A stretch of 35,028 nucleotides of DNA from a virus: positions 1 to 35,028 of IMG/VR virus record IMGVR_UViG_3300047200_000126, one strand, 5' to 3'. Both the position numbers and the translations under genes were made by a program. The notes below the pieces were generated by a model, which was not told where the DNA came from, did no database searches, and saw nothing but the letters and a program-made list of their open reading frames with translations. Shown here piece after piece: positions 1,717 through 33,980 of the stretch (positions are counted from its first letter, which is position 1; every line of letters begins with the position of its first letter).

Positions 1717-3291
1717 TCAAAGAAGCCAATTAATATCTTCACTATTACCATCAGGCAAATGCATTTTATATGGATCATTTTGTATTGATGGTCTGTTGTA
1801 TATAGATACTGTAGATTTTATATTTGCTACCGCCATTCTATTTATTTCAATACCAGCTTGTCTTAGTTTAAGTGCTGTATCTCTAACCCACAATCCTTCA
1901 CAAAAACTCATAATCAAATCGTCATTATAACCTGATGCTGCTTCTGCTCTTGCGTTTCTCCAAATAAAGACATAAAGCTCTTCTAATAACCTCTTGCTTC
2001 TAATAATACAGCTTTTTTCACGTATATACAACTCCATCTTACTAATCGCAAGTGGTCTAGTTTTTTGACTCATTGTAAATCCTGCAACCATGTCTGACTT
2101 ATTTGTTAAGTCATATCCCTTTGTTAAGAATCTATCTGAATCCAATACATCGTTCTTATAAGTGTAATATAAGTTTCTATAGTTCCTATCAATAACTTGT
2201 TGTATTGTAGCCCATCCCACATTAGCATTTTCTATAACAAGCAATGCATCATTGTATTCGGTTCCTACAGCTACTAACATGTTACCATAATCCTTTGTTC
2301 CAATTTGTCCTCTATACTCAGCAACTTGTCTGCAAGATTCAACATCGATAACATGAAATGCAGAATTGTCACTACCATCTCCACGAGCAACGTCAGCTGC
2401 AACAATATAGTTTTTTGTGTAATCTGGTATTTCCCAAACCCATAAATTTCCATCAAAGCCTCTTTTCTCAATTGGCTCTTGTGCATAAGTTTGCATGTAA
2501 TATGTAATGAGTTCTGGTGATACCACTGTATTACCTGATGTAGAGAAGTCACAGTCACATTCTTGTGCTGCAAGTCTTATACCTAATTCCTCATCTTGTC
2601 TATCTCTCCAAGTCTGATCTCTGTCTGGATGCACTTGCCAAGGTAGTCGTTTTGTTTTAAACTTGTTCTCTCCTGCTTCTGCCTTAACCCAAGTCTTATG
2701 AAAAAAGTTACCAGTTCCATTTGGAGTCGATAATATGATACCCTGACCACCAGTATTTAGTGTTTGTTGTAGTGATGCCCAAAGTTCTTCTGCTCCTTCA
2801 ACGAAAGCAGCTTCGTCAATAACTACCATTGATAACGCTTCTGAACGTCCTGATGTTCCTGTACTCGCTACTGCTTTAATCTGAGATCCATTTGATAATC
2901 TCATTGATAGCTTGTTACTTTCTGTTGTTTTTAGTTTAAGCCAACTTGGTAGATTATCAAACATTACCCTAACCTTTGTTACAAGGTTTTTAGATGTGTT
3001 TTGATCTATCGCTACTACTAATACGTTTTTATCGCTGTGGAATAGAATCATCCATAAAGCATATCCTCCAACTAAGGTTGATATACCTAACTGACGAGAC
3101 TTTAGGATAACCATCCTATCATTCTCTTGAAAATCTTCTAAAGTATCTTCTTGGTATGGGTATAAATGAAATGGAACTTTTCCTTTGGTAGGATGTTGAA
3201 TCATACAATACTTCTTCATGAAGTATGATGCTGATTTAGCGCATTTAACGTACTCTTCCTTGATTATGTCTTTAAGACTCTTCTCAGCCAT
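1717..3291 (-). CDS. gp17: Terminase large subunit, T4 gp17-like
   Basis: This 524-residue protein is the ATP-driven DNA packaging motor and headful nuclease, which docks on the portal. The N-terminal ATPase domain shows a deviant Walker A (KSRQLGIST, about 64-72), in which the Lys comes early and the usual GKT lysine is Ile. It also has a Walker B with catalytic Glu (VVIDEAAF, 156-163) and a coupling motif STPNGTGN (188-195). The C-terminal RNase H-like nuclease has acidic residues in VAADVARGDGSDNS (Asp300), LVIENA (Glu354) and GYNDDLIMS (about Asp457-458). T4 gp17 is 610 residues, so this one is somewhat shorter. The ATG is 15 nt after the preceding stop, with no Shine-Dalgarno element. 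No small-terminase gene is visible in the window. The portal gene follows directly. Confidence 0.95.
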   Translation of the reverse strand: MAEKSLKDIIKEEYVKCAKSASYFMKKYCMIQHPTKGKVPFHLYPYQEDTLEDFQENDRMVILKSRQLGISTLVGGYALWMILFHSDKNVLVVAIDQNTSKNLVTKVRVMFDNLPSWLKLKTTESNKLSMRLSNGSQIKAVASTGTSGRSEALSMVVIDEAAFVEGAEELWASLQQTLNTGGQGIILSTPNGTGNFFHKTWVKAEAGENKFKTKRLPWQVHPDRDQTWRDRQDEELGIRLAAQECDCDFSTSGNTVVSPELITYYMQTYAQEPIEKRGFDGNLWVWEIPDYTKNYIVAADVARGDGSDNSAFHVIDVESCRQVAEYRGQIGTKDYGNMLVAVGTEYNDALLVIENANVGWATIQQVIDRNYRNLYYTYKNDVLDSDRFLTKGYDLTNKSDMVAGFTMSQKTRPLAISKMELYIREKSCIIRSKRLLEELYVFIWRNARAEAASGYNDDLIMSFCEGLWVRDTALKLRQAGIEINRMAVANIKSTVSIYNRPSIQNDPYKMHLPDGNSEDINWLL

Positions 3292-3306: not shown

Positions 3307-3726
3307 TTAGCGAACTAGCAAACTTGTTGCTACTCCTGCTATTGCTATTCCGGTAACTATTCTAATTACCCTTTTTTGTTTTTTCTTGAGCTTTTTGTTA
3401 TCTTGCTCTAGTCCTGTAACGATGCTTTTGTATTCTATTTCTTTATTCTTGTACAAATCAATTTGTGCTGTGTAATTTGCTACTTTAGCTACATACGCAT
3501 TAATCAGTCTCTGATTGGTAGAGTTTTTTTCCTCTAGCTGTTCAACTAGGATTTTTGTCTCAGTCAGTTCGGTTCGTGCTGAATCACCTCTTACTAAATC
3601 TTTTGCTATCTTTTTTACAACACTGTCTGGAAAGCAGTGCATTTGTGTTTTACTTGTACCTGTCTGTGAAAAAGTTGCCAAGCTCATCATGAGTAGCATT
3701 ATCAATAGCTTTAATCTTGTTGCCAT
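3307..3726 (-). CDS. Exported coiled-coil protein with C-terminal membrane segment, spanin-like
   Basis: The protein has 139 residues. It begins with a signal peptide (LKLLIMLLMMSLATFSQ, about 5-21), continues with a long charged coiled-coil-like region (about 45-118), then a basic stretch (KKLKKKQKR) and a C-terminal hydrophobic helix (VTGIAIAGVATSLLV, about 124-138). This predicts a periplasmic coiled coil anchored by its C-terminus. Its start lies 77 nt inside the preceding gene, which encodes an N-terminally anchored coiled coil. Overlapping pairs of this kind are the usual arrangement of phage spanins, which disrupt the outer membrane in the last step of lysis. There is no convincing lipobox (the first Cys follows KTQMH), so it is not a standard Rz1 lipoprotein. 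The lysis role is inference. Confidence 0.75.
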   Translation of the reverse strand: MATRLKLLIMLLMMSLATFSQTGTSKTQMHCFPDSVVKKIAKDLVRGDSARTELTETKILVEQLEEKNSTNQRLINAYVAKVANYTAQIDLYKNKEIEYKSIVTGLEQDNKKLKKKQKRVIRIVTGIAIAGVATSLLVR

Positions 3727-4003
3727 ATTGGTTTTGAATTTGTGTTATTTTGTGTTTTGTTGAGTCAATTTTTTGATCAGCAATAATCAAGTCGTTTTTA
3801 TAACACTTAATTAAACTATCTTGAACGAGTTGTTCTTTTTCTAGTGCATTAATTAAGGTTGTTAAGCTATCGATTTGACTCTTTTCTTTAGCATACGGAT
3901 CTACATCAGATCCTCTTGTAGACATAAACAAGTAACCAGTCAACACAAGTATGGTGATGAATATGGTAAGCAACAATCCTGTTGTTAATTTGCTTATTGT
4001 CAT
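3650..4003 (-). CDS. N-terminally anchored coiled-coil protein, i-spanin-like
   Basis: The protein has 117 residues. One hydrophobic segment lies near the N-terminus (LLLTIFITILVLTGYLFM, about 10-27). The rest is a charged region with heptad-like spacing and a C-terminus ending in FFTDRYK. This is the topology of inner-membrane spanin subunits (Rz type): a short cytoplasmic end, one membrane helix and a periplasmic coiled coil. The last 77 nt overlap the start of the next gene in another frame, like Rz/Rz1 pairs. I see no endolysin or holin beside it. Alternative roles are a membrane-tethered assembly factor or a superinfection protein. The ORF itself is secure; the function is a moderate inference. 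Confidence 0.72.
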   Translation of the reverse strand: MTISKLTTGLLLTIFITILVLTGYLFMSTRGSDVDPYAKEKSQIDSLTTLINALEKEQLVQDSLIKCYKNDLIIADQKIDSTKHKITQIQNQYGNKIKAIDNATHDELGNFFTDRYK

Positions 4004-4015
4004 AACTGTGTTTTA

Positions 4016-4252
4016 TTAATTTTCGTCTTTAGCTTTGTAGTTGTTATCTACATAGTCAAAGAATTCTTTTTTCTTTGCTGGATCTTTTAAATCTGCTGGG
4101 GAGCTGATTTTAAATTTATCCATAGCTTTTTTAAAGAACTCTTGATAAGCTGTGTCTTCTTTAAGACGCTTTACGATCATTTTAGTTTTGTTTTCGTTTA
4201 AAGCTTTTTTAACTTCTTCACGAATTGCTTTTCTTAGATTGGCCGTTTTCAT
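4016..4252 (-). CDS. Small charged protein with capsid-targeting-like N-terminus
   Basis: The protein has 78 residues, is Lys/Glu-rich and helical-looking, and belongs to no family I recognise. It begins with MKTANLRKAIREEVKKALNE, a basic amphipathic helix ending in L-x-E. The start resembles the MKT... targeting peptides of T4 internal head proteins, which the prohead protease cuts after [LI]-x-E. The start codon overlaps the preceding stop by one nt (TAATG), so the two genes are probably translationally coupled. Its position among head-packaging genes fits a packaged internal protein or a scaffold component, but no function is shown by the sequence. Confidence 0.72.
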   Translation of the reverse strand: MKTANLRKAIREEVKKALNENKTKMIVKRLKEDTAYQEFFKKAMDKFKISSPADLKDPAKKKEFFDYVDNNYKAKDEN

Positions 4253-4587
4253 TAGTGTACGATGTTTGTTCTGATTGTTTTCAGAATGTTTAATTTCTGC
4301 TCGCTTGAGGCTGCAAACTGTTCAATTACAGTAGATAACATTTCCACCAACTCCTCCATACCTATCTCAGCACCACTATCTTTTAGCTTCCTGATGTAGT
4401 ACCTAGTTATTCCTTCCAGTTTTGGATTCAATCCTTGCTCTTCTTCAGGCTCTTCTTCAGGTTCAGGTTGCTCTTCTTGTTCCGGAGCTTCTTGTTCTTC
4501 TTCAGCTTCTAACAACTTAACAATTTCTTTTCTAAGCATTAAGCGTAGAGCGTTTTCGTTTATTTTAGATTTTTTAGTAGTTTTCAT
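4252..4587 (-). CDS. Small protein with highly acidic tract and charged N-terminal helix
   Basis: The protein has 111 residues. The N-terminal helix (about 10-27, containing ALRLMLRKEIVKLLE) is followed by a tract made almost entirely of Glu, Gln and Pro (about 27-51). A helical C-terminal region follows (ITRYYIRKLKDSGAEIGMEE and onward). The acidic tract is encoded by low-complexity CTT/TTC-rich sequence on the plus strand. Extreme acidity occurs in scaffold proteins, DNA mimics and packaged head proteins, and I cannot choose among these. It lies 2 nt after the preceding stop and overlaps the next start by one nt, so it is part of one tight operon. The function is unknown. Confidence 0.72.
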   Translation of the reverse strand: MKTTKKSKINENALRLMLRKEIVKLLEAEEEQEAPEQEEQPEPEEEPEEEQGLNPKLEGITRYYIRKLKDSGAEIGMEELVEMLSTVIEQFAASSEQKLNILKTIRTNIVH

Positions 4588-4589
4588 TT

Positions 4590-5009
4590 TTATTTTTCGA
4601 TTAATTTCATAAAATTAGTTGTCTTGGCATTGAAGTTTTTCTTGTCTTTGTTGTCGAACATTATTCTTTCGATTTGACCATCTTTTTGTTTCATTAAACA
4701 AACAGTCGCTTCTAAAACTTCTAAACCAGTTAAAGTGTAAACAACACCAAATACTGCATATTTTTCAGTTACCTTGGCATACAACTTAGCATCTGCTACA
4801 ATTAAGTCTAACATGCCAAAACCAGTAAGGTCAGCTACGAAGATGCTTTCTTCGCTTTTTACACCTAGGAATTTAAACATTGGTTTGTACCCATGAGCTG
4901 CTTGAAATTCACGGAAATAAGGGATTGCCATTAATTCTGGAGTTGATTGCTCTTCTTGAGCATATTCTCTTAATGGTATTAGGTTTACTAGTTTCATAGT
5001 CTGTTTCAT
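4590..5009 (-). CDS. Conserved-looking hypothetical protein, possible head-internal
   Basis: I chose the ATG at 5009 (MKQTMKLVNLIPLREYAQEE, 139 residues). The longer frame from 5081 would run back into the preceding coding region, whereas 5009 begins 7 nt after that gene's stop. A second in-frame ATG at 4997 is possible. The N-terminus is short and charged with L-R-E, like its neighbours. The remainder looks like a small mixed alpha/beta domain (hydrophobic runs such as SIFVADLTGFGMLDLIVAD and YAVFGVVYTLTGLEVLEAT). I recognise no catalytic motif or family. It sits inside the cluster of small genes between the ligase fusion and the lysis-like pair. Confidence 0.68.
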   Translation of the reverse strand: MKQTMKLVNLIPLREYAQEEQSTPELMAIPYFREFQAAHGYKPMFKFLGVKSEESIFVADLTGFGMLDLIVADAKLYAKVTEKYAVFGVVYTLTGLEVLEATVCLMKQKDGQIERIMFDNKDKKNFNAKTTNFMKLIEK

Positions 5010-6150: not shown

Positions 6151-6657
6151 TTAATTACTTTGTTTGTAGTCTTCTACTTTTTTGGTTATGTTTTCGATAA
6201 CTGAGTCTGTAATCTTTTTTATTTCAGTTTGATCTGCATCTCTCCATTTTTCGACTTGACCATTTTCAGTAACGTGTGCTTTTGCAACCCCTTCTTGGTT
6301 ATAATCTTCCATATAGCTAATTAGATCTTTTATAAAGCTATCAGCATTAGCCATTATTTTTGCTTTTTCATACTCTGCCCATTTACCTGCTTTTTGTATT
6401 TCATGATCTGCATCAATTACACAATTAAAGCAAGTTTTGTGGATTGCCCACATCTTCTCATCTAAGTAGTGTTTCATAGATCCATTGCATTTTGGACATG
6501 CTAATGGAGTTGAAAACTGCTTACGTGCCTCATCCATTTTAGACACCGTTCTTTTGATACCATTCTTAATAGTCCATAACTTTCCACCTTCTGTCCAAAC
6601 ATCGCCTTCGATGTGCTTAACGTGTTTTTCTCCTATCGTAACATGTAAATTTTCCAT
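6151..6657 (-). CDS. Zinc-ribbon hypothetical protein
   Basis: The protein has 168 residues. The first 45 residues (containing GDVWTEGGKLWTIKNGIKRT) look like a small beta domain. A zinc ribbon follows, with C54-x2-C57 and C76-x2-C79 (CPKCNGSM ... KTCFNC). The C-terminal half is helical and charged and has no further motif. The layout matches a hypothetical family I recall from T4-like phages of aquatic bacteria. Likely roles are nucleic-acid or protein binding through the ribbon, but nothing indicates a reaction. The gene starts 5 nt after the preceding stop and lies in the same operon as the GAF-like gene. Confidence 0.72.
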   Translation of the reverse strand: MENLHVTIGEKHVKHIEGDVWTEGGKLWTIKNGIKRTVSKMDEARKQFSTPLACPKCNGSMKHYLDEKMWAIHKTCFNCVIDADHEIQKAGKWAEYEKAKIMANADSFIKDLISYMEDYNQEGVAKAHVTENGQVEKWRDADQTEIKKITDSVIENITKKVEDYKQSN

Positions 6658-13017: not shown

Positions 13018-16000
13018 CTAACAATTTATATAGCTAAAATCATCTTTACGATCTATAGTTATTATATTGTCAACCATATCCCTAACAACATCAATGTGAG
13101 ATATTACTAAACTAAACCTAAATACATCCTTCATATATGTGAATAAAGTGTGCATTGAGTTAAGATTGCTACTATCCAATACTCCCAAACCTTCATCTAA
13201 TGCAATGAAGTCAGGCTTTGGTAGGTTAGTAATCTTAATTAAAGCTATACGAAGTGCTAAAGATGATAAAAAACGCTCCATTCCAGAGCTTAACTCTAAT
13301 GGCCACTTTGCATCATCATAGCAAATAAATACGTTTATATTCTTTCCATCTGTCTCCAGTTCAACCGTAAAGTCAATAACTTGGTTTAAGATGTTGTTGA
13401 CATATTGTTGTATGTATGGAACAGCTTTGCTTATCATTACATATGGTATGCCATCTTTACAAACAGCTTTACAATATAGATCGTAGGCTACTTGTCTATC
13501 AGCCAACTCTTGCATATGTCTGATAGATTCATTGCATTCATCAATAACCTGTTCAGCTACCTTTATTTTAGCATGAAAATCCTTTACTGTATTGTTAGCT
13601 TTGGATAGATCTATCTTTTTTAATGCTATTTTTCCTTGTATATCTTTGATTTGAACGTGGATTGCTTTGTTGTTGCTAAGTATTGCCACATTGTCATTAT
13701 ACACCTTTATATCCCCTTTAATCTTGTCTATTTTGTGTTTTTGGATATCTATATCCTTCTTGATACGATCATAAGCATTCTGCAATCTCTCTACTACTAT
13801 CACAGCTTCTTTGTGGTTGTTGAGTGCTATCTGCAGTTTGTTAGCTTCTTCTTGTATAAACTTGTTGTTTTCAATAAACTCGGATACCTTACCTATTTTC
13901 TGCAAAAAATCATGTACTACCTTCTTATCGTTTTCTAACTCATCTTTAGTCTCGATAGCATCCTTTACAAATACGTTTGAAGTACAATACTTGCAATTAG
14001 GATCATACTCGTGTTTTTCGAGTTTTTCCAGCTTTGATAGCTTGTTTGATATTGTAAGTTTCATTGTGCTGAGTGTGTTATCTAACTCACTCTTCTCTTG
14101 CAACTTTGCGTTGTACTCCTTGTATAGGTTGTTATCAAAAGAACTTTTAGTCTTGTCTAAATTCTGTGTAGCTTCCTGTAAAACTGTCTGCTCATCTTCT
14201 AATTGCAAATGTGCTGTTGAAGCATCTTGACCTAGTTTAGCTAAATTGTTTTCTGCTAATTGCAAATCTTTTTCCAATACTACAATATCTAAACCATCAG
14301 CTGTACAAGGTTGTAGTTGCTTGTTTAAATCGAGCTGTTGCTCACTTAATATGTGTAAGTCAGCTTCTGCGCTATCTAATACCTTTTGAGCTTCTTCATG
14401 CTTACCTTCGTTAGTTTCTTTAGCTGTTTCAGCATCTCCTAGTTTAGTCTCAAAATCTTGCTTTTGGTACTCCTCTAATACTATTACAGCTGTTCTATTC
14501 TCTTTGTTAGCTAACTCATATAGTGAGTCAAATATTTTCAAATCTAAAAAGTTAGCTAACAAATCTTTTCTTTCACCTTGAGTCTTATCGATAAAGTTTG
14601 AGTTATTACCTTGTAGTGATAATGCAGTTAAAATGAAGTCATCAAAGGTTCCTACATAGGATTGAATAATCTTGTCTGTATCTCTTCTTTGCTCACCATT
14701 TAAGGATATCTTATTGTAGTCAGCATCTATGTACCAAAAATCTATATCTACACGAAGCTTACCAGCTAATGGTCCTTTTAGGTATCTTGTAGCTTTTTTC
14801 TCTACAAAATAATCTAAACCACCTAATTCAAACTGAAACTTACACCAGAAGCCATCCTTCTTTCTATTCAATACTTGCTCAGCTTTGCTCGCTCTAAAGG
14901 AGTGATCAAATAAACAAAAGCAAAGAGCATCTAAGATAGCTGATTTACCTGCATGATTAGGTGCAAACAATCCACATGTTCCATCCAGCTTTTCAAAGTT
15001 TACTGAGTTGCCTTCACCATAACTGAACATATTATCAAACTCAAACTTCTTTGGTTTCCAAACTACGTTACGAGCTGATTCTCCTTGATTTAAGGTTTGA
15101 TTAAGTGTTGTATTGATTTTTAGTATGGATTCCATCAACTCTGCATCAACGTCAAACTGCTGTAAGTAATCCGTTATCAACTGGTTTTGGTGTTGAATAT
15201 TACGTACATCTCCTTGGTGAAGAGATTCTCCAAATAATTGATTATCAGTAGTACTTGTGTTCTTATCTAACCTCTGAACAATCACATCACTATTACGATA
15301 TAGTTTTCTAATTGTTGCAAGGATTCTTTTGACTTCTGCTGCTGAAGTGTTCTTAGTTCTTAGCCGTACGTTTGTTTTGGAGTTGATTGGTAAGTTGTCA
15401 GGCAATACTCCTGAGTCTACATCTAGTGTATAGAATCCATATGGATTTGGAATATCAAAAAACTCATACTTGATGTCTCCTTTAGTTCTCAAATCACAAA
15501 GAGCATAACCATGCCCCTCAAAAGATTCTCCAAAGTTTTGTTGTACTAATGATCCTGGATAAAATATAATTGGCTCACTCTTACATAGGACTTGTCTTTT
15601 GTGAATGTCTCCTAACAAAACTAAATCAAAGTTTGCAAAAGTATCCCAATCTAAACCATGTGACAACACTAAACCACTATCAACTTTACTATTAGCAATA
15701 GTACCGTGATACATAGCTATTGTATGTTTGTATTCTTTATTTTGTGGTAATTTATCAGCTGTTACATAGTCTGTTGCTGGATCAAGTAAAGACATGACAC
15801 TTATGGCTACGTCACCAATTTCATATACTCCTGAGTTACGTAGGTAGAAAAGATTAGGATGATTGTTAGCTTCTATTATTGGAGTTAAAGCATCTAATCT
15901 GTTGTTGTTATTTAGATTTGTGTCATGGTTACCACAAATAACTATTGTAGGTCTTCTTGTAGCTAACTCATTAAACAGGTATGAAGTCATGTTAATCAAC

Positions 16001-16203
16001 TCAGGACTCATATCTGTCTTAGCATGAACAATATCACCTCCAACAGTAACAATACTATTGTCAGGTAACTCATCAACAGCTACAAGTAGTTTTTTAAACA
16101 CCTCTTTAAACTCAACATGTCTTTTCCAGTTTCGCAAATGGATATCTGCAATATGGAGTATGTGATCTACTTGGGTTATTTTATTTTTAATTTTGTTAAT
16201 CAT
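13018..16203 (-). CDS. 47/46: Single-chain SbcD-SbcC (Mre11-Rad50, gp47-gp46) fusion recombination nuclease
   Basis: One uninterrupted 1061-residue ORF carries both subunits. Residues 1-250 are a metallophosphoesterase with D20-x-H22, GD (56-57), GNHD (91-94), H166, H182 and GDIH (198-201). A linker with a helical region (250-385) leads into an SMC-type ATPase. This has Walker A APNHAGKS (414-421), long coiled-coil arms (about 565-905) with a zinc hook CKYC (737-740), signature LSSGMERF (971-978), Walker B FIALDEG (999-1005) and H-loop ISH (1034-1036). T4 makes gp47 and gp46 as separate proteins. Together they resect DNA ends for recombination-dependent replication and host DNA degradation. 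The ATG overlaps the primase TGA by 4 nt (ATGA), which implies translational coupling. Confidence 0.95.
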   Translation of the reverse strand: MINKIKNKITQVDHILHIADIHLRNWKRHVEFKEVFKKLLVAVDELPDNSIVTVGGDIVHAKTDMSPELINMTSYLFNELATRRPTIVICGNHDTNLNNNNRLDALTPIIEANNHPNLFYLRNSGVYEIGDVAISVMSLLDPATDYVTADKLPQNKEYKHTIAMYHGTIANSKVDSGLVLSHGLDWDTFANFDLVLLGDIHKRQVLCKSEPIIFYPGSLVQQNFGESFEGHGYALCDLRTKGDIKYEFFDIPNPYGFYTLDVDSGVLPDNLPINSKTNVRLRTKNTSAAEVKRILATIRKLYRNSDVIVQRLDKNTSTTDNQLFGESLHQGDVRNIQHQNQLITDYLQQFDVDAELMESILKINTTLNQTLNQGESARNVVWKPKKFEFDNMFSYGEGNSVNFEKLDGTCGLFAPNHAGKSAILDALCFCLFDHSFRASKAEQVLNRKKDGFWCKFQFELGGLDYFVEKKATRYLKGPLAGKLRVDIDFWYIDADYNKISLNGEQRRDTDKIIQSYVGTFDDFILTALSLQGNNSNFIDKTQGERKDLLANFLDLKIFDSLYELANKENRTAVIVLEEYQKQDFETKLGDAETAKETNEGKHEEAQKVLDSAEADLHILSEQQLDLNKQLQPCTADGLDIVVLEKDLQLAENNLAKLGQDASTAHLQLEDEQTVLQEATQNLDKTKSSFDNNLYKEYNAKLQEKSELDNTLSTMKLTISNKLSKLEKLEKHEYDPNCKYCTSNVFVKDAIETKDELENDKKVVHDFLQKIGKVSEFIENNKFIQEEANKLQIALNNHKEAVIVVERLQNAYDRIKKDIDIQKHKIDKIKGDIKVYNDNVAILSNNKAIHVQIKDIQGKIALKKIDLSKANNTVKDFHAKIKVAEQVIDECNESIRHMQELADRQVAYDLYCKAVCKDGIPYVMISKAVPYIQQYVNNILNQVIDFTVELETDGKNINVFICYDDAKWPLELSSGMERFLSSLALRIALIKITNLPKPDFIALDEGLGVLDSSNLNSMHTLFTYMKDVFRFSLVISHIDVVRDMVDNIITIDRKDDFSYINC

Positions 16204-17126
16204 AAAGACATTTTAAAGGTTATTAGGTCAAAAAAGTCTACTTTCTTAGCTCTGTCCTTAGCTTCAACCATAGACAAATATCCAGCTTCACTTGGATCTT
16301 TTCCTGGAAGATGGACTAAATAGACTTCTACACCATTGTTCATAAAATATTCAATCTCTTTCACACTACTCTTAAAAGCATCAGTATCTAATGACAAATA
16401 GAGTTTTTGTACCTTCTCAGTTAGTATCTTATTTCTTAAGGTACTCAATATTATTTTACCAAACAACGGTATTGCGTTCCTTTTGGTTGCTATTGCATCG
16501 AATGCACCTTCTACAATTGTTATAGGCTCTTTCCAGTTGATTTGGTTCTCAAATCCAATGATATCTTTAGTTACTGGTGGGTTCTTATGCTTAACGGTTG
16601 CATTGTCATAAAAGCTTCTGCCTACGTAATAGTTGATCATATTGTGTTCATTATAGCTTGGAATGATCAACATTCCAGCATAAGGTCCTTCTTCACAATA
16701 ACCTACCTCATATCTTAGGATATCCATTGGAGTTAGCTTTCTTACTTGCATTGCATAGTGTAAAGCATTTTTATAGTCAGGTGTGCCTTGTGGTATGTAT
16801 AATGGTTTGTAATGCTCTGGTAGTCCAACTATCTCTCTACTAAAGTTGTTTTTGTTACTAAAGTTGTTATCACCATAAATCTCTCGAATCTTCTGATAAC
16901 TTTGGTTTGGAGCATTACTCTTTTTGAGTAGGGATGTTAAGGTTTGTCCCTTACTATCGCATGTCCAACAGTGCCACTTCTGTGTATTTATGTTGACTTG
17001 AAGTTTTCTCTTATGGTGATTGCAGAATGGACAGTAGTAGCTTATCTCCCCACTTTTTTTATGTTGCATGCTAGAACCTAGATGCTCATCAATAATATGT
17101 TTTACTTCCAATAAGTTTAAAGTCAT
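16200..17126 (-). CDS. DnaG-type DNA primase (zinc finger plus TOPRIM)
   Basis: I chose ATG 17126 (MTLNLLEVKHIIDEHLGSS, 308 residues); the frame could start earlier only at a TTG (17159). The N-terminus has a CHC2-type zinc ribbon, C32-x2-C35 and C53-x2-C56 (YYCPFCNHH ... WHCWTC). A TOPRIM fold follows, with the catalytic Glu in ITIVEGAFDAIA (E206) and the metal-binding pair in YLSLDTDAF (D247, D249). At 308 residues it has the compact size of phage primases and carries no helicase domain. It would lay RNA primers for lagging-strand synthesis, as T4 gp61 does. It lies between the resolvase gene (40-nt gap) and the SbcDC fusion (4-nt overlap), forming a replication/recombination trio. Confidence 0.92.
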   Translation of the reverse strand: MTLNLLEVKHIIDEHLGSSMQHKKSGEISYYCPFCNHHKRKLQVNINTQKWHCWTCDSKGQTLTSLLKKSNAPNQSYQKIREIYGDNNFSNKNNFSREIVGLPEHYKPLYIPQGTPDYKNALHYAMQVRKLTPMDILRYEVGYCEEGPYAGMLIIPSYNEHNMINYYVGRSFYDNATVKHKNPPVTKDIIGFENQINWKEPITIVEGAFDAIATKRNAIPLFGKIILSTLRNKILTEKVQKLYLSLDTDAFKSSVKEIEYFMNNGVEVYLVHLPGKDPSEAGYLSMVEAKDRAKKVDFFDLITFKMSL

Positions 17127-17166
17127 ATTTGAATATACAACTTTTATTCTATAAAACAAAGAATGG

Positions 17167-17568
17167 TTATTTCAACCAATCGCTTGGTATGATCTTGTCT
17201 GAGAATTGAAAACCGTGTTTGATACACCAATCTGCATAAGTAGTTTTAGATCCTTTTCTAATCTTTCCTTTAGAGTTTTGAAACACAAATCGGATATCCA
17301 ACTCAGGATGTTGCTTTTTTATCAAAACATGTTTTGCTCTATCTTCTGTTACAAACCTTCCTTTAGTTTCTATAAAGATTCCGTTAGGTAGTTTGAAGTC
17401 TGGTGTATATGTGTGTTCAGATTCTGGTATAATGTACTTGATCTTGTGCTTCTCGTACTCTCCATCAATGCTGTTTTGAGATAGTAGCTCGTTTATATCT
17501 GCTTCCAAGCCACTTCTGTAACCTCTTACTAATGCTGCTTGTCTTTTTGCGAATCTTACTTTTTTCAT
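17167..17568 (-). CDS. T7 endonuclease I-type Holliday-junction resolvase
   Basis: The protein has 133 residues. The PD-(D/E)xK active site is complete: E22 in RSGLEADINELL, D57 in YTPDFKLPNGIF, and E67-x-K69 in IETKG. The spacing is the same as the E20, D55, E65, K67 set of T7 endonuclease I, shifted by two. The C-terminal block (KIRKGSKTTYADWCIKHGF) also matches the family. The family forms a domain-swapped dimer that cuts four-way junctions and branched DNA, which resolves recombination intermediates before packaging. T4 itself uses the unrelated gp49 (endonuclease VII). This is the one start with a Shine-Dalgarno-like AAAAAGG. It follows the LamG structural gene by 13 nt. Confidence 0.92.
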   Translation of the reverse strand: MKKVRFAKRQAALVRGYRSGLEADINELLSQNSIDGEYEKHKIKYIIPESEHTYTPDFKLPNGIFIETKGRFVTEDRAKHVLIKKQHPELDIRFVFQNSKGKIRKGSKTTYADWCIKHGFQFSDKIIPSDWLK

Positions 17569-21216: not shown

Positions 21217-24200
21217 TTACCCTATGGGTCGTGTAGTTGTTTCACCAGGCCTATTTGTATTTGTTGACAATAATCCTCTTGTACTTGGTTGAACGCTTAA
21301 TTGTCTACCTCCTCCAACTGTCACTACTACTACTGGTCCTCTATCTATTGTGTCTGGACTATTTACATTCCAATCAGTTGAGGTCATTTTACAGCCATCG
21401 TAGCGAGCATTTCTCATACCACGACTATCTCTTAAATGAAAATCCTGTACTTGTGCTCTGTAATTTAAACATTCAACACTCACCGATTTGATGTAGCTTT
21501 GGTGTGCAGCTGTTCCATTAGTATACATTCTAAAACCTAACCATGGACCTACGGCTAGTGTGTTGTATGTGTATGTTGTTTCTGCTGTAGATGGCACGAT
21601 TGATGCAGTTAATATACAATCTAAATTACCAAAATGCAACTCTAATCTATCTGTTGGTGTGGCTGATGTTTTCGCTACAGTAACTGATACTTTGTATTGA
21701 TAGTTTATTGCTTTAGGACTAGTTGCATCGTAGAAAAATGCTGGTAGTTTAACTGATGCTGTGTAAGATTGTATTGCTGTGTTTTGGAAATACAATCCTA
21801 AACTTCCAGTAAGTCCCCAAAATCCAGTAGTACTGTATGGTGTTGATTGTGCAACATTTGCAATAGACAAAGAGTCAATTCGTAAGCCGTATAGATTTGT
21901 CCAGTTATTCTCATACAATGCTGATGAAGCTGTATATAGTGTTGTGTAGGTGCTCAGTGAACCTGATTTATACTTACTGTAATCGGTGAATGCTTTTTTA
22001 AAGTATATGTCAGTGTCATATACGTCGTTAGTTATGTTTGAGAGTCTGCTGGTTGTATTATCCATAATTGTTGGACTATACGGCTCAAAATAGTCATACC
22101 TGCTGGCAGTTACTAGGTATGGTTCAGATGTAACTAGAGTTGTTGCACTATATGTAGAAGTGCCATATATTGCAGTTCCATAAAGAGACACTTGAGCACT
22201 TTGACTTGTCATGTAAGTCATGAAGATGTATTTAGAACCCTCTACTCTTGTATCACGACCATAGCTTGATATTCCCAAATCAACTGTTCCTATTAAGCTA
22301 CTGGCTTCCGATGGATTGCTAGTTATTCCTGTGTTGTTAAATTCGTTAGCTGTTCCCGATAATGTTGTATGCTTTTCTCCTATTGTTCCTTCTGCAACAA
22401 TAAAGTCTTCACCAGATATTGGTACCAATTCCGTTGTAATAGTTCCTGCTGGAACATATCCTGTACTATCTCTGAAAGGCTCACCATCACCATCTTGTAC
22501 AAAACCACCTAAGGTGTATATGTCAGGAATTGTTATGGATCCTGAGTAGTGAAGTTCCTCAGAGGCTGGCGGTCTTGTTGGTACTTTGCTTCTTTGTAGT
22601 ATGGTTGGTTCTATAACCAAACCTACTTGAGTATTAGCTCTATAAGGTACAAAATTTTTAATGAGCTTAAATAAAGCTGCATCAAAGTTTTTTAGCAATC
22701 TAATATAGTTTTGAGCACCAGCCTTTCTGGTATATTTTTTAAAATATTCTCTTTGTAATTTTTCTAAGTCAGGATAAACCTCACTGCTTAGGTCTGCTGG
22801 ATTTCCAATAAAATCATCAACACTAAGACCTCCAAATTGCTCTGCAATATCTTGATTAATTTCATTTAGTGGTGATAAGTATACTCCTAAACGAGGACTG
22901 TCAATTGGACTATTATCAGATAATGCAACTTCAGTTTTAGTGTTTCTGTAAAGTTGATTGTCACCACTTAACGTTGTTGTATCAATCTTAATCTTATTAC
23001 TTACGCTCCTATTACCACCTAGATCTGGCCACTCAAGTGAATGGATTTCTACAACAGGATTAAAATAAGATCCTGAAAAATTGTAGAATGAGCCGCTTAG
23101 ATTGGTTCTTGTTTGATCTGGATGTTGTGAAGTTAAGCTGCTAGTAGTTGCTAAGTTAATCTTTTTATTATCAGCTCCTAAGCATAGTCTAAACGCTAAA
23201 TCATTAAAGCTAGATGTACTGCCTGTGTAGGTGTCTGCTAAACTTCCTTGAAAGCTTGTAGGTGCTAACGCATGATTGTCTAATATGGCGTTTTGTAAAG
23301 GTGTTGTCCAGTATCTCAGTTCTTGAATACTTCCTGAGAAGATATTCATTGAATGTGAAGTGGCTGCTAAGAATGAACCAGATCCTGGAATCCATAAAGT
23401 TCCTTGTGTATTGAACTTTTGTAGATAATAGGATCCAGTAGATCCACCAACTATGGTGAGAGAGGAGGTGTATGTTGCTGTAACTTTTTGATAATTTGTG
23501 TCTCTAAGAGATAGGGTAAAGATCTGTGTAGTGCCTGGTGATGTTGCATCAGTTTTATTACTCCTTTGAAGGTTGAGTAGATGAAAATTACCATCATAAA
23601 TAGAGCAGCTTACGCTTGAAGTATACCATCCTTGACTTCCACTTAAATAGAAACCAACATAATCACCACTTGCACTCTTAAAAGCTTCTACTTTCCATTG
23701 GTTTGGAACTTCTAGAATAGTTTGTCTTTTGGTTTGATTTGGTGCCATTTTGACACGCATCTCAACTGCCATTGGTATTAGATCGTCAGCACCTACTTTA
23801 CTCCAAGGCACACTAACAAGTTGTGCTACTTGTCCGGAAGTCTTTCCATTATATCCTACTGTTGTTGAGTAAAAAAACCTCTCGTATTGTAAATCTGTTT
23901 TAGTTTCAAAACTTGCTTCTGCTCCTCCATATTCACGAATACGTAAAATGGTTTGTGGAATACCAAAACAATTAATTAAAGCTCTTACGCTTCTTTCTGT
24001 ACCTCTTGTTTTTAGCAAGTATGGTAAGTTGTTGACAATTCGTTTCCAAATCTCTTTTGTCTTATCTTCAGTACTTACTGCAAATGTTGATGATAGTGAT
24101 CCTGTTGTATCTGTTCCTAATGTATAGCTCCACAACTCATCAATAGATGATCCATTTTCAAAATCCACTCCTAAGTTTCTGGAAACGTGATAAACCAACT

Positions 24201-25767
24201 CTTTACTGAAACCTTCTAGAATAGACTCTTGTCTGTCTGTATTTTTGTTTAACTGCTTAACATATGTAAACATTAAATCAAAATAGTGACCGATCATTTG
24301 CGTAAATAATACGTACTGATCATTGTTTGGATCACTTATAATGTGTGCTGGTATTAGCCTGTATAATGCATTGTCATTGTTTTGATCGTATATACTTGCT
24401 GAAGTGATTATTCCATCAAACCAACTTTCCACTTGTGATGATGTGTATGAGTAATTTACGTATGGTTTTGTGCTGTTTATCTTTGGCCAAGTAGTTGGAT
24501 AAAACTCACCATAACTACTAGATTCATAGCTACTTGATTCGTTTAGTAGGTATTTTTCATACCCATCCATCGATCCTAATAATGCTGCCTTTTTGGTTTG
24601 AGCATCTACTACATTGCTTTGATAGTATATACTACCTGATGCGCTACCACTCAGTAATCCAGATAAACCAGTTGTTAACGCTTGTATCCTACTATCGTAG
24701 TTTTCTAATAACTGTACTTTATATTTAAAATTTTGTAATCGTTCTGTGGCTGATCCAAAGTGAGTATGATTCTCAAACTTTCTATAATCTACATTTAAAG
24801 CTATTCCTTCTAAGAAGGAACTGCTTAGCATTTTGTTTATAATGCCTTGAGAGGTTTGAGTATTTGTTGTTAAAATATCATCCCAATCTTTATACTGTGT
24901 AGCTATTCCAGTTGTTTGTTTGGTGTTTATATCCCAATTAGGTCCTGCTATTACAATCTTATTTCCTTGATTTTTAGGAGGTATAATAGTTATAGAGTCG
25001 GTAATAGGATCGCTAACTTGTTGAGCTAACCATAGAAGAGTTCCTACATTAATCCCTGCTGGTGCAGGTGCATTTAATTTAAAAATTATGCTGTAAGGAG
25101 AGTTGCTTACTGTTATATAGTCTTGAACATAATCAAATACTCTCAGGCCAGTAGTAGCATCTTTAAACAAAAACAGGTTTACTAGTGTTTCTGTTTTTAA
25201 AAGTTTAAAAAAGTCATTTCCAAAAAAGTTAATAAAATCAACATTGTTGTATGTACTAGATAAAACAGGAACTACACGTATTTCTAGTCCATCAGCACTA
25301 ATTTCTTGTATTCTTAGTTTCTGTGTATCACCGGATCCTAATAAATTCCTATGAAAGTTATATTGAACTTTATACTTTCCAGAAATGTAACCCGAACCAC
25401 TTAAATCTGTTTCTGGGTCTAATGTTATACTATTTCCTGTCTGTGAGTAAGAACTAACTCTAAAATTTGTCTCTAAATACTGATTGTTGTTGTTGTATAT
25501 ATCTAGAGTGACAACGTCGTTTGGGTATAGAATACTGGCAGTATTTTGACCTCCTACTTGAGCATAGTTTGTTGTTGGGTTTGAGTAGATTCCAAAAGGA
25601 GTAACTGTTGTTACTAGTTGAACTGTTGATACTAAATCTTGTGGTTGAGTATTAAGTGCAGAAGCGATACCTGCTGGTAGCTCACTGCCTGCTGGAGCAG
25701 CACCTAATGTAAAGCCACCTACTGTTGACTGGCTTAGCTCTGATGTATTCAATCCTTCTGTAGGCAT
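21217..25767 (-). CDS. Very large tail/baseplate structural protein with central LamG domain
   Basis: The protein has 1516 residues. The N-terminal 450 residues are mixed alpha/beta with no recognised family. Around 580-611 is YLLKTRGTERSVRALINCFG, an arrangement reminiscent of baseplate proteins of the P2 gpI type. A LamG/concanavalin-like domain follows at about 650-845, ending FSGSIQELRYWTTPLQNAIL. Around 1020-1040 is KNFDAALFKLIKNFVPYRAN, then a long Ser/Thr/Tyr-rich C-terminus of further beta domains. Size, composition and place between the Ig-domain proteins and the small structural proteins suggest a baseplate hub-to-fibre connector or a giant adhesin. The ATG is 9 nt after a TATTTATA motif. 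The specific role is inference. Confidence 0.82.
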   Translation of the reverse strand: MPTEGLNTSELSQSTVGGFTLGAAPAGSELPAGIASALNTQPQDLVSTVQLVTTVTPFGIYSNPTTNYAQVGGQNTASILYPNDVVTLDIYNNNNQYLETNFRVSSYSQTGNSITLDPETDLSGSGYISGKYKVQYNFHRNLLGSGDTQKLRIQEISADGLEIRVVPVLSSTYNNVDFINFFGNDFFKLLKTETLVNLFLFKDATTGLRVFDYVQDYITVSNSPYSIIFKLNAPAPAGINVGTLLWLAQQVSDPITDSITIIPPKNQGNKIVIAGPNWDINTKQTTGIATQYKDWDDILTTNTQTSQGIINKMLSSSFLEGIALNVDYRKFENHTHFGSATERLQNFKYKVQLLENYDSRIQALTTGLSGLLSGSASGSIYYQSNVVDAQTKKAALLGSMDGYEKYLLNESSSYESSSYGEFYPTTWPKINSTKPYVNYSYTSSQVESWFDGIITSASIYDQNNDNALYRLIPAHIISDPNNDQYVLFTQMIGHYFDLMFTYVKQLNKNTDRQESILEGFSKELVYHVSRNLGVDFENGSSIDELWSYTLGTDTTGSLSSTFAVSTEDKTKEIWKRIVNNLPYLLKTRGTERSVRALINCFGIPQTILRIREYGGAEASFETKTDLQYERFFYSTTVGYNGKTSGQVAQLVSVPWSKVGADDLIPMAVEMRVKMAPNQTKRQTILEVPNQWKVEAFKSASGDYVGFYLSGSQGWYTSSVSCSIYDGNFHLLNLQRSNKTDATSPGTTQIFTLSLRDTNYQKVTATYTSSLTIVGGSTGSYYLQKFNTQGTLWIPGSGSFLAATSHSMNIFSGSIQELRYWTTPLQNAILDNHALAPTSFQGSLADTYTGSTSSFNDLAFRLCLGADNKKINLATTSSLTSQHPDQTRTNLSGSFYNFSGSYFNPVVEIHSLEWPDLGGNRSVSNKIKIDTTTLSGDNQLYRNTKTEVALSDNSPIDSPRLGVYLSPLNEINQDIAEQFGGLSVDDFIGNPADLSSEVYPDLEKLQREYFKKYTRKAGAQNYIRLLKNFDAALFKLIKNFVPYRANTQVGLVIEPTILQRSKVPTRPPASEELHYSGSITIPDIYTLGGFVQDGDGEPFRDSTGYVPAGTITTELVPISGEDFIVAEGTIGEKHTTLSGTANEFNNTGITSNPSEASSLIGTVDLGISSYGRDTRVEGSKYIFMTYMTSQSAQVSLYGTAIYGTSTYSATTLVTSEPYLVTASRYDYFEPYSPTIMDNTTSRLSNITNDVYDTDIYFKKAFTDYSKYKSGSLSTYTTLYTASSALYENNWTNLYGLRIDSLSIANVAQSTPYSTTGFWGLTGSLGLYFQNTAIQSYTASVKLPAFFYDATSPKAINYQYKVSVTVAKTSATPTDRLELHFGNLDCILTASIVPSTAETTYTYNTLAVGPWLGFRMYTNGTAAHQSYIKSVSVECLNYRAQVQDFHLRDSRGMRNARYDGCKMTSTDWNVNSPDTIDRGPVVVVTVGGGRQLSVQPSTRGLLSTNTNRPGETTTRPIG

Positions 25768-25776
25768 CTATTTTAG

Positions 25777-25784
25777 TATAAATA
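25777..25784 (-). promoter_or_regulatory. Late-promoter-like motif upstream of the 1516-residue gene
   Basis: The coding strand reads CTATATTTATACTAAA, with TATTTATA ending 9 nt before the ATG at 25767 in a 51-nt intergenic gap. No terminator hairpin was found in that gap. Confidence 0.58.
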
Positions 25785-25818
25785 TAGTGAAATAAAACTT
25801 CTGACCTTCTTAGTTGAT

Positions 25819-28668
25819 CTATAATTCAGGTAGCTCTGTAGGGAATATCAAATTGTATGAAAATTCAGGTGCATCAGCTGAATTAAATGCGCTAGGGTTT
25901 AGGTATTTTTCTTTTTGTAATCCTAAAACAGTTGCACTTGCTGGTGGTAGGTAGTAACTTGGGTACTTTGGTGATTTCTCAAAGTTATTAGCAGCTACTA
26001 AATATTTCATTGATGTTATACCACATCTTGGATTTCCATACTCAACTAACCTATTACTATAACCAGTTGATTGACCATACTCATCACTATATATCTCTGA
26101 ACTTGTCCATCCTTTAGTTTGTGGACTGTTGTCGTCAATGATAGTTGACTTGTGATCAAATAATACAGTAATTTGTACAGATCTTGTTCTTTTAGGTATA
26201 GCTGCTGTTAGTTCAACTCCGAACATTGCAGCTGCTCCAAAATCGTAGACTGCTTTATAGCTGTTTTGTGAGTAGGAATCTCCACGTGGATTTGTGTTAC
26301 GATTATTTGGTGGGTAGGCTCCTCCGTAAGTTTTAAAGTCGTATTTGTTCATTAAGAACTTTGCATTTACATCTCTAATTTGGTCAATAGCTCCACCGTA
26401 ACCATCTCCTACATTTAGTAAGTTAAAGAAAGGGTTTATAGTAAGTGTGTCTGTATACTTTTGGTTAAATACTGTTATTGCATTGCTCCCACTTGGTTTT
26501 ACAAACTCAAAGAGAGGATATAGGGTTAGTGGAAAATACACCTTCTCCTTAATTGCCCACACGGTTTGTTCATCTGGTCCGTTTATTGTGTCAGTTTTTA
26601 TAATATTACCTTCACCATCCAGATAATTAATTTGTATTTTTGTTTGATCGTCCAATACTGGTATTATTTCAATATCGGAATACTCATTAATTTTTCTTTT
26701 TCTTGCTTCTCCTGCTGCATACCTAGCAATTCTCTCTACACCTAGTATCCATGAAATCTTGCTCGACTGCCTTGCTATAAATGCAAGGGTTTTATCTACG
26801 TTTGGTAAGATGTTTGTTTCAATTTCAGATATAGTGTCCTTAAGAAAATTATACAAGTTTCTAGTAACTAGTCTTTTGAGTTCATCGGAATCGTAAGTAA
26901 AATCTTTTGCACTTCCAAAAATTGGTCTTTTCCCTTTATAAAAAGTATTTAAGTCTGATGTAGTTGGAGTGTATGTAAATTCAGTATATTGGTCAGTATA
27001 TCCATCCACATTTGCTGAAAGTATACCTGTAATACCAAGATATCCTTGAAGTCTATTGATATTTTCATTAGGAGTTATATTACTACTCGATACTAAGAGT
27101 GTTTGTAAATTATTAAAATTAATTTTTATACTCCTCCACCAGTCCCATCCATCATCTGGTAAGTTGTTAGCTGCTTCAATTAAAATGTCGTTAATGTTTT
27201 CTGAATTCTCATAGTAATCTCTCCGGAGATGTAAACTATTGAGTATGTCTATCACACCAGTACGAAAATTAGTTTGACTTTTTTCATCCTCTGTTAGGTT
27301 AAGTCCTCGTGTTAAGTTTTTCATCTCACTATATGTGAATCGTTTTTGTTGATCCACATCATAAAAAGTATCCTTTATTGTAAATGCTCCATCTTGACCA
27401 TCACGAAAATTAGATGCAAACATTTCAGCGTACTCTTCTGATGTACCTATATAATAGGGAAATTCCGCGATTCCATCGGGTGTAGAGAGTCTTATTTTAT
27501 AATTTGTTATACCAGCTCCAACGTATGCAAAGAACTGTGAGGTAGCGTGTGTAATGCCGTATGCGTTGCCATCAATCATATCAGCTATATCACTTAAATC
27601 TATTGTTTGTGATAAGCTTGTTTGAGCTTTTCCACCTGCATTTTTAAATTTAATTTTATCTCTTGTAAAATATGTTGGTGTTGTGTCTGTTAATTCACTT
27701 TGCAAACTTATAATATTTTCATTTGTGTTTTTATTATAAGCATCTAACCAAGCAATTCCAGGAAAGAAACCTGCTACATCGTTTGGAGTATTGTAATCTT
27801 CGTTTGGTATTATTTGTGGAATTTGTCCTTGTGAATAGTATTGATCTTGATAATCTAATATTCCATCAGCTGAAGATTTTCTGTCTATGTCTGTAAATGT
27901 TGTATCTCTAGCAACTCGCTTTCTGTAGGATTCATTAAACATGCCTGCATGAGACGTATTTGAAAATCTAAACTCAGGTCGTATTTGTGTTGTTGTATTT
28001 GATCCAGAGTCATTGATTATCATTCCAGACAATCTAAAGCTACTAAAATTTAGAGACCTTTCTAATTCACGTTGGAAGGGTGTTACTTTTATATCTGAAT
28101 CTGCTTGCCATCCATCTAAGCCACCTTCACCACTTCCGTTAGTAATGAGGTTTTTATATAGTTTTGGATGATCAAATGGATCTACTATATTAAGCGTAAA
28201 TGGCTCTGTTTCAGTACTTCCATACTGATTTATTACTTCACACACATATTCTCCTGATAAGAGTGGTGTACACGATTCACTCATAATTAGGACTTTATTT
28301 GTACCTAAGTTGTTATTTAAAGTATTCAAGCTCCCAATCAAAGAACCATTCAATCTCCATCTATACTGCAAACTGCTTGGTGTATTTCCATTAGCTTGTG
28401 TTGCATAGTTTCCAGCAAATAATTCAAATGTAATTTCAGTACCTTGTAAAGCTGTTACGATATCGGATGATGGTGTTATTCTTTGAGATCGAGAGTTGTT
28501 GGGGTTTAGTTCTATATTAGATGCCCATGTTTGTTGTGTTAGAGATGTAAGTGGTTGTAGAGTAATCTCTGGTGGTGTTGTGTTAAGCGGTAGAATAGAG
28601 AATGGACTAGTGTGATTTACACTCTCTTGAGAGTATGTATTTAAACTTATTGTACGCTTATTGCTCAT
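25819..28668 (-). CDS. Ig-domain structural protein, longer paralogue
   Basis: The protein has 949 residues. An Ig-like domain spans about 33-162. It shows the core Trp in LQYRWRLNG (W104) and the tyrosine-corner/Cys motif SGEYVCEVINQYGS (138-151). Right after it comes DPFDHPKLYKNLITNGSGEG, which aligns with DPNIDDYFFTNLIRNPNGEQ in the next gene, so the two are paralogues with the same N-terminal architecture. The remaining ~750 residues are mixed alpha/beta with no family I recognise. Ig-like domains on phage virions usually give weak binding to cell-surface glycans. The ATG is 4 nt after a TATTTATA motif. It is probably a tail or baseplate appendage. Confidence 0.8.
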   Translation of the reverse strand: MSNKRTISLNTYSQESVNHTSPFSILPLNTTPPEITLQPLTSLTQQTWASNIELNPNNSRSQRITPSSDIVTALQGTEITFELFAGNYATQANGNTPSSLQYRWRLNGSLIGSLNTLNNNLGTNKVLIMSESCTPLLSGEYVCEVINQYGSTETEPFTLNIVDPFDHPKLYKNLITNGSGEGGLDGWQADSDIKVTPFQRELERSLNFSSFRLSGMIINDSGSNTTTQIRPEFRFSNTSHAGMFNESYRKRVARDTTFTDIDRKSSADGILDYQDQYYSQGQIPQIIPNEDYNTPNDVAGFFPGIAWLDAYNKNTNENIISLQSELTDTTPTYFTRDKIKFKNAGGKAQTSLSQTIDLSDIADMIDGNAYGITHATSQFFAYVGAGITNYKIRLSTPDGIAEFPYYIGTSEEYAEMFASNFRDGQDGAFTIKDTFYDVDQQKRFTYSEMKNLTRGLNLTEDEKSQTNFRTGVIDILNSLHLRRDYYENSENINDILIEAANNLPDDGWDWWRSIKINFNNLQTLLVSSSNITPNENINRLQGYLGITGILSANVDGYTDQYTEFTYTPTTSDLNTFYKGKRPIFGSAKDFTYDSDELKRLVTRNLYNFLKDTISEIETNILPNVDKTLAFIARQSSKISWILGVERIARYAAGEARKRKINEYSDIEIIPVLDDQTKIQINYLDGEGNIIKTDTINGPDEQTVWAIKEKVYFPLTLYPLFEFVKPSGSNAITVFNQKYTDTLTINPFFNLLNVGDGYGGAIDQIRDVNAKFLMNKYDFKTYGGAYPPNNRNTNPRGDSYSQNSYKAVYDFGAAAMFGVELTAAIPKRTRSVQITVLFDHKSTIIDDNSPQTKGWTSSEIYSDEYGQSTGYSNRLVEYGNPRCGITSMKYLVAANNFEKSPKYPSYYLPPASATVLGLQKEKYLNPSAFNSADAPEFSYNLIFPTELPEL

Positions 28669-28672
28669 CTCT

Positions 28673-28680
28673 TATAAATA
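28673..28680 (-). promoter_or_regulatory. Late-promoter-like motif between the two Ig-domain genes
   Basis: The coding strand reads TGCTATTTATAAGAGATG, with TATTTATA ending 4 nt before the ATG at 28668. It fills most of the 15-nt gap after the shorter paralogue. Confidence 0.55.
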
Positions 28681-28683
28681 GCA

Positions 28684-33551: not shown

Positions 33552-33980
33552 CTATATGTTCGAATTATTTAGAATCTCTACCTGAATGGATCTTGTATCG
33601 GTCGCATTACCACTTAAACTTATTGTCATTTTAAGGTTTATGCGGTTTTGATCCTCGTTAGGTGTAACTAATAACTCATTAATAAATATATACGGAAGCC
33701 AATAGTTGAAGCTACTTCTTATATTTGATTCGATAGAAGTAACTAAATCCTCTGTAATATTCTCAAATAGTATATTACTCAAATCACAACCTAAAGTTGG
33801 TTGCATTATTCGTTCACCTTTATTTGTTAATAGCAGATTCCTAGCATTAGCTAATGCCTGATCTATAGAAAAATAAGTTTGCTGAAATAAACCACCCACA
33901 CTACCCATCATAGGTAGATCAATGCCTATCGCTGTACTTAGTTCAAAGTCAATTGGGTTTATTTTAATTTCAACTGCCAT
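33552..33980 (-). CDS. gp25: Baseplate wedge protein, T4 gp25-like
   Basis: The protein has 142 residues (T4 gp25 is 132). It has the family's characteristic centre: NARNLLLTNKGERIMQPTLG, then CDLSNILFENITEDLVTSIE, and a C-terminal beta region. Gp25 clamps gp6 and gp53 in the wedge and contacts the first sheath ring; the lysozyme-like fold has lost enzymatic function. The start overlaps the preceding stop by one nt, and the stop is 1 nt from the gp6 gene, so the three are coupled. The order matches contractile tail operons in general. Confidence 0.94.
   Translation of the reverse strand: MAVEIKINPIDFELSTAIGIDLPMMGSVGGLFQQTYFSIDQALANARNLLLTNKGERIMQPTLGCDLSNILFENITEDLVTSIESNIRSSFNYWLPYIFINELLVTPNEDQNRINLKMTISLSGNATDTRSIQVEILNNSNI

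Follow-up and report, generated by a model that had tools for sequence, protein, structure and literature searches.

The window analysed here is the 35,028-nucleotide stretch of the IMG/VR virus record IMGVR_UViG_3300047200_000126, and the element under study is a minus-strand open reading frame (ORF) at positions 13018-16203, which starts with ATG, runs through 1061 codons without interruption in the frame analysis, and joins an Mre11 (SbcD)-type nuclease to a Rad50 (SbcC)-type ATPase in one protein (Table 1). In Pfam, Metallophos matched residues 15-202 (1.2e-8) and AAA_23 residues 390-630 (1.3e-8), both above cut-off, while SMC_N matched residues 667-1052 (8.2e-10) slightly below its cut-off (38.9 vs 40 bits) and SbcC_Walker_B stayed far below (15.4 vs 27). 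In PHROGs, a metallo-phosphoesterase family covered residues 11-249 (3.4e-11) and the SbcC family phrog_77 residues 289-1059 (2.1e-46). Sequence searches against the PDB agreed, with the first part read as calcineurin-like phosphoesterase/SbcD and the remainder as SbcC/Rad50, and the AlphaFold2 (AF2) model matched the SbcC head fold (Z 27.9, 3.6 Å, 347 residues) across residues 382-1061. An earlier sequence-only reading of this DNA had claimed that Mre11/SbcD and Rad50/SbcC are fused in one 1061-residue phage protein, and frame, motifs and the profile searches of both halves, which assign phosphoesterase and then SbcC families, agree with it.

Table 1. Features of the fused gene and its upstream neighbours, in window coordinates.
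Feature	Position	Strand	Basis
Fused Mre11(SbcD)-Rad50(SbcC) gene, 1061 aa, ATG start	13018..16203	-	Pfam, PHROGs, motif search
Mre11-type phosphoesterase domain, residues 13-250	15454..16167	-	Pfam Metallophos; AF2 models compared with SbcD/Mre11 structures
Metal motif V GDIH, residues 198-201, Asp for canonical first His	15601..15612	-	Sequence; 113/113
Capping domain, residues 252-311	15271..15450	-	AF2 secondary structure; aligned SbcD/Mre11 nuclease-plus-capping chains to ~311
Helix-loop-helix (HLH, Rad50-binding domain), residues 336-370	15094..15198	-	AF2 helices 336-350 and 354-370; 7yzo_B; TmMre11 profile
Tether from nuclease part to Rad50 strand 1, residues 371-380	15064..15093	-	Model: follows helix 354-370, precedes strand 381-390
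Rad50 N-lobe with Walker A (414-421) and Q-loop, residues 381-583	14455..15063	-	AAA_23; SbcC head fold match
Coiled coil, residues 584-914	13462..14454	-	AF2 helices
Zinc hook CKYC, residues 737-740	13984..13995	-	Both Cys in 113/113
Rad50 C-lobe (signature, Walker B, D-loop, H-loop), residues 915-1061	13021..13461	-	Motifs, conservation, fold match
DnaG-type primase-like gene	16200..17159	-	Zinc ribbon above cut-off, Toprim below; 4-nt overlap with start of fused gene
T7-type endonuclease I family gene	17167..17568	-	Pfam PF05367 5.3e-60

The motif search located the nuclease motifs DIH (20-22), GGD (55-57), GNHD (91-94), the motif IV His166 and GDIH (198-201), followed by the Rad50 motifs GLFAPNHAGKS (411-421), Q531 of the Q-loop, CKYC (737-740), LSSGM (971-975), FIALDE (999-1004) and H1036. 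The ABC-ATPase motifs, coiled coil and CxxC zinc hook of Rad50 are all present in this protein. The statement that all diagnostic motifs are present holds with one qualification: GDIH is a variant of the canonical motif V (GHxH), in which Asp (D199) replaces the first His in all 113 close relatives. Across 113 distinct intact coding sequences, the window's own among them, 18 of 19 tested motif residues were identical to the window throughout; H22 was kept in 111, with Gln in the other two. This conservation is far beyond chance.

The fused gene is genuine and does not arise from an assembly error, because the junction lies in frame in 135 of 135 sequence-distinct relatives and fused homologues occur in isolated phages. 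A first scan of IMG/VR confirmed 159 relatives, and among the 80 kept, 64 were intact in a single frame, 12 were cut by a contig end but unbroken, and 4 were broken. A second scan confirmed at least 567 relatives among at least 600 stretches; 80 were kept, and the 75 new locus ids comprised 68 intact genes, 6 running off the contig and the contig of locus L049 again. The resulting 155 IMG/VR locus ids reduce to 132 distinct sequences, which together with L002, L003 and L005 make 135 (133 without two contained fragments overlapping other loci). Using these, with identity down to about 39%, the Mre11-Rad50 junction was found within one open frame in every case, and a stricter frame criterion gave 133 of 135, missing L005 and L164 due to stops upstream of the start codon. 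The breaks in the four broken loci fall away from the junction, near residues 113, 207, 531-607 and 880, and consist of an insert after residue 207 (L049) and apparent frameshifts (L054, L059 and L063). The 113 intact sequences hold no internal stop. Over residues 246-380, the nonsynonymous rate (dN) was well below the synonymous rate (dS) in the four of six computed pairs with usable dS, for example window vs L013 (dN 0.061, dS 0.80), and dS was saturated in the other two; ten pairs had been chosen, and the remaining pairs had a member missing from the de-duplicated set. No missed stop or frame change was seen at residues 250-385, and the survey of related phages returned the fused form in close homologues and isolates, two-gene phages being distant.

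The same earlier reading had taken residues 250-385 for an unusual linker that replaces the normal subunit interface. This is unsupported, as the region models as capping domain plus HLH and aligns with these parts of E. coli SbcD (7yzo_B) and T. maritima Mre11 (TmMre11). The full-length AF2 model (29 sequences, mean predicted local distance difference test score (pLDDT) 77.8) contains strands and a helix at 256-311, helices at 336-348 and 354-370, and the first Rad50 strand at 381-390. Because the fold search with the full model barely covered residues 310-380, residues 1-381 were modelled separately (32 sequences, mean pLDDT 86.1, predicted template modelling score (pTM) 0.79), and nearly the same secondary-structure elements were reproduced, with pLDDT below 50 at segment 316-331. 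Chain 7yzo_B, from a DNA-bound complex, aligned over its residues 1-395 with model residues 13-372 (Z 24.4, 4.8 Å, 325 residues), and 3tho_B (TmMre11) aligned with residues 13-360 (Z 25.3, 5.8 Å, 307 residues). About 6 of the 50 listed fold-match chains extend into the HLH; several others end near residues 311-321 (5dny_A at 314, 6s6v_A at 321), so the placement of the HLH against the nuclease is less certain than its presence. In the sequence profile, too, the match continues to residue 366 of chain 3qg5_C, in the C-terminal part of TmMre11, and its middle section has low confidence. Across the 113 sequences, the mean majority fraction was 0.64 in the nuclease domain, 0.55 in the capping domain, 0.54 in the HLH and 0.40 in the coil, compared with 0.30 in loop 312-331 and 0.47 in residues 372-380. 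In these models the capping domain and the Rad50-binding HLH both appear to be retained, the former firmly and the latter judging from those few longer chains. With the canonical interface parts present, only about 10 residues (371-380) are therefore extra, and these are, in the model, the true tether.

Fusions of this kind are already known, and the window carries a phage member of the R555 type. In the available text of Yoshida, Claverie and Ogata (2011, PMC3175470), an Mre11/Rad50 fusion is described for Mimivirus R555 together with twelve further cases in bacteria, plasmids, eukaryotes and a Bacillus phage, and the fusion itself, its compatibility with the interface and the tie to aquatic phages were all published there. 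That text also proposes a linker of 9-12 residues from a gap of about 28 Å, notes that R555 has His where GDXXD ends in Asp and Asp at the position of Pfu His206, places marine R555 homologues beside phage primases (SPO1- and A511-like) and T7-type endonucleases, and confirms marine fusions in only a few long sequences (PMC3175470). The fusion of Bacillus phage 0305phi8-36 reportedly lacks one ATPase segment and the capping/HLH part (PMC3175470). We assign the window protein to this known kind because the window shows the neighbours described for marine R555 homologues and its family has the two substitutions described for R555. By the published description, R555 has the same N-Mre11/C-Rad50 order, retained capping domain and HLH, a short extra linker (9-12 residues vs about 10 in the window), His at the end of GDXXH and Asp in motif V, and its marine homologues lie beside a phage primase and a T7-type endonuclease, as in the window. 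In the window, too, the nuclease comes first and both domains occupy one frame. The window differs in its setting, a phage contig that also encodes a terminase and baseplate proteins, and its protein is shorter (1061 aa vs 1351 aa in R555). In a fold search of BFVD, all seven named matches among the nine best came from giant or large algal viruses, with Tupanvirus first at 23% identity; no name was shown for the remaining two.

The two-gene systems share the parts but not the fusion. SbcC and SbcD are named as two partners in the available text of PMC7824862. E. coli SbcCD (PDB 7yzo, 6s85) has the fold of both halves including the HLH, but consists of two separate chains with a longer SbcC (1048 aa). 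Phage T4 likewise has an SbcC/SbcD-type pair, gp46/gp47, which serves the recombinase UvsX; here the genes are separate, with two small genes between them in the T4 annotation, and motif V reads GHFH.

Fused homologues were found in Microcystis phage Mel-JY01, an uncultured 735-kb phage, Tenacibaculum phages pT24, PTm1 and PTm5, Sphingomonas phage PAU and Chryseobacterium phages MA9V-1 and MA9V-2. Record labels such as AAA domain containing protein, metallo-phosphoesterase or DNA repair conceal the fusion. In the isolated phages (Mel-JY01, pT24, PTm1, PAU gp288 and MA9V-1) both halves lie in one frame, like in the window. The Mel-JY01 protein (WWT39521.1) shares 38% identity with the window protein along its full length, and its gene has a primase immediately upstream, whereas those of pT24, PTm1, PAU and MA9V-1 are longer (1301-1326 aa) and form a separate branch. 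A scan of bacterial genome contigs gave 12 relatives, 11 of them in metagenome-assembled bins and one a short weak match in Ewingella; by inference, most of the bin matches are misplaced phage contigs.

For the tree, 21 of the 113 intact sequences and 6 fused proteins from named records were combined with 6 split pairs chosen among the search hits, leaving aside L003, L004, L007, phage P100, giant viruses, Bacillus phage 0305phi8-36 and cellular fusions. A single branch (100/99) divides the 27 fused rows from the split pairs, and the fused rows also grouped when the nuclease and ATPase halves were analysed separately (12 fused, 6 split), with Shimodaira-Hasegawa-like approximate likelihood ratio (SH-aLRT) support of 96 and 99, respectively. 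This tree is unrooted, has few split rows and long branches flagged by the program, and its rows were partly chosen by similarity to the window. In approximately unbiased (AU) tests, the T4 pair joining the fused group was rejected (p 6e-9), and Moorella MTATph1 joining it was not (p 0.23). Vibrio phage 70E37.1 (Demerecviridae) adjoins the fused group in the best tree with no support (37/3); in this phage (L177, 2521-5369) the split SbcD also has Asp in motif V and its gene overlaps the SbcC gene by 4 nt, which offers a possible picture of the state before fusion. As a modest new point, the sampled phage fusions group together in these trees, which is compatible with, and no proof of, a single fusion event in phages. 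A wider proposal, that the phage fusions arose once, near the Asp-for-His change, and that the R555-type genes of giant viruses belong to the same lineage, is tentative and on present data rather unlikely. If true, R555 would stem from the gene pool of aquatic phages, in contrast to the 2011 proposal of repeated independent fusions (PMC3175470).

Among loci with enough flank, a primase homologue was upstream of the fused gene in 132 of 133, and endonuclease I in 87 of 124. In 49 of 64 intact loci from the first scan the fused gene starts with ATGA, which in the window forms the 4-nt overlap with the primase stop, and this suggests translational coupling of the two genes. A terminase large subunit (1717-3291) and baseplate wedge proteins (31658-33550 and 33552-33980) are encoded in the window, which has the look of a tailed, myovirus-like phage with a contractile-tail baseplate. 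Gene content was checked in 12 long records chosen among the relatives. Each has one strong match to phrog_77, and a second separate SbcC was rejected, the only four further matches being weak (E 7e-6 to 3e-4) and confined to 3 records. A second SbcD was likewise rejected: four extra phosphoesterases in 3 of the 12 records were taken as ordinary phosphatases because they are 219-267 aa long and matched only the two Metallophos models. RecA was found in 9 of the 12 and endonuclease I in 8.

We consider the protein, with a probability of about 0.85, to be a single-chain SbcCD/Mre11-Rad50 enzyme of the R555 type in a tailed myovirus-like phage, with a predicted activity in end resection that feeds phage recombination. 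Two chains would pair via their nuclease domains and, with ATP, via their ATPase heads, so that the M2R2 (two Mre11, two Rad50) machine would be built from two chains instead of four. ATP-driven movement of the heads would enable the nuclease to process double-strand ends and hairpins by trimming or nicking, and, by analogy with T4 gp46/gp47, the resulting 3' strands would be used by the phage RecA in recombination-dependent replication and repair, with endonuclease I resolving the junctions. The fusion may mainly couple expression and stoichiometry, leaving the interface as it is. A fixed 1:1 stoichiometry, also put forward from the sequence, does follow from the fusion and may matter for its function. 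Several points weigh against this reading. First, the Asp that stands in place of His at motif V might impair or alter the nuclease. Second, with a pTM of 0.51 the full-length model does not fix the placement of nuclease and heads relative to each other. Third, RecA was not found in 3 of the 12 long records, which are possibly fragments, and endonuclease I was not found in 4. Fourth, in the literature found, as far as its text was available, no activity of any fused Mre11/Rad50 protein is reported.

The strongest competing explanation, still an improbable one, is that tether and motif V Asp together make an altered machine with a different metal site or substrate, for example one acting mainly in tethering or as an endonuclease. 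The invariance of the Asp across the 113 close relatives, which is the other modest new point of these comparisons, speaks for it. The equivalent Asp also stands in 6 of the 7 full-length fused proteins compared, in L003, and in R555 as described in PMC3175470. However, Asp and fusion are separable, because fused PAU and an incomplete fused frame from human faeces (L007) both read GHIH, and the split SbcD of 70E37.1 has the Asp (GDLH). In addition, Asp is still able to bind metal, and the other tested metal residues are retained except H22 in 2 of 113. All 113 sequences have His60 at the end of GDXXH; GDLLH is the reading of T. maritima Mre11 too, so this form is not exclusive to R555-type fusions.

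Much less probable is that the chain is cleaved, or that the ATPase half is also made from an internal start, giving two subunits. Met392 is invariant (113/113) and could serve as such a start, but it follows Rad50 strand 1 (381-390), so its product would miss the first strand, and elsewhere in residues 340-396 Met occurs in at most 19 of 113 at any position. An artefact in which an indel joins two adjacent genes has a negligible probability and was rejected. Such cases exist, as in Listeria phage LMTA-57, but here the junction is open in all 135 relatives, the breaks sit elsewhere, the four usable pairs show dN far lower than dS over the joint, and isolates carry the fusion.

The case of LMTA-57 is instructive in itself. 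Its annotated fused exonuclease (L004, 2351-5380, AID17555.1) is probably a one-base sequencing artefact: the fused frame is 3030 nt, whereas 38 other Listeria records, among the 40 listed of 62 matching, have 3031-3032 nt, and of these 33 carry two or three features at the locus and 5 are unannotated. The artefact is also present in a viral structure library. The record of Listeria phage P100 (L170, 1348-3232) splits the ATPase region into gp46 and gp47, possibly due to another indel.

A single-chain SbcCD of natural origin offers a convenient way to learn whether a nuclease cooperates with the ATPase head of its own chain or acts in trans. Fused Mre11/Rad50 in aquatic phages, inferred in 2011, can now be placed in long genome contexts, and Microcystis phage Mel-JY01 is a named isolate in which the fusion is testable.

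Inserts interrupt the gene in two relatives. In the 484-kb uncultured phage L003 (LR756508.1), about 1 kb (~3580-4634) interrupts the fused gene just past motif V and contains an ORF of 305 aa (3674-4591) whose product has Cys-rich fingers and matches a TnsA-like endonuclease family (PF08722, 5.8e-6), possibly a homing endonuclease that splits the gene, in line with the idea of fractured genes. In L049 (IMGVR_UViG_3300010354_000656), a short insert without the endonuclease ORF lies at the same site (~3098-3186), and the tail that closes the first frame is similar to the one in L003, with an acidic stretch followed by YL..GW; the insert is possibly either a remnant or a related element. Searches for a group I or II intron at this site gave only matches far under gathering scores, none of them to an intron family.

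Three minor observations concern other genes. In Mel-JY01 (L002, 6277-6789), a GIY-YIG protein is annotated beside the primase and may replace endonuclease I, which had no match in that genome. Three large ORFs of the window (1516, 949 and 625 aa, within 21217-30561) had no PHROG match at E 0.01. At window positions 6151-6657, a weak match (E 0.0065), which may be due to chance, was obtained to Mu Gam-like DNA end protection, a function of interest beside an end nuclease.

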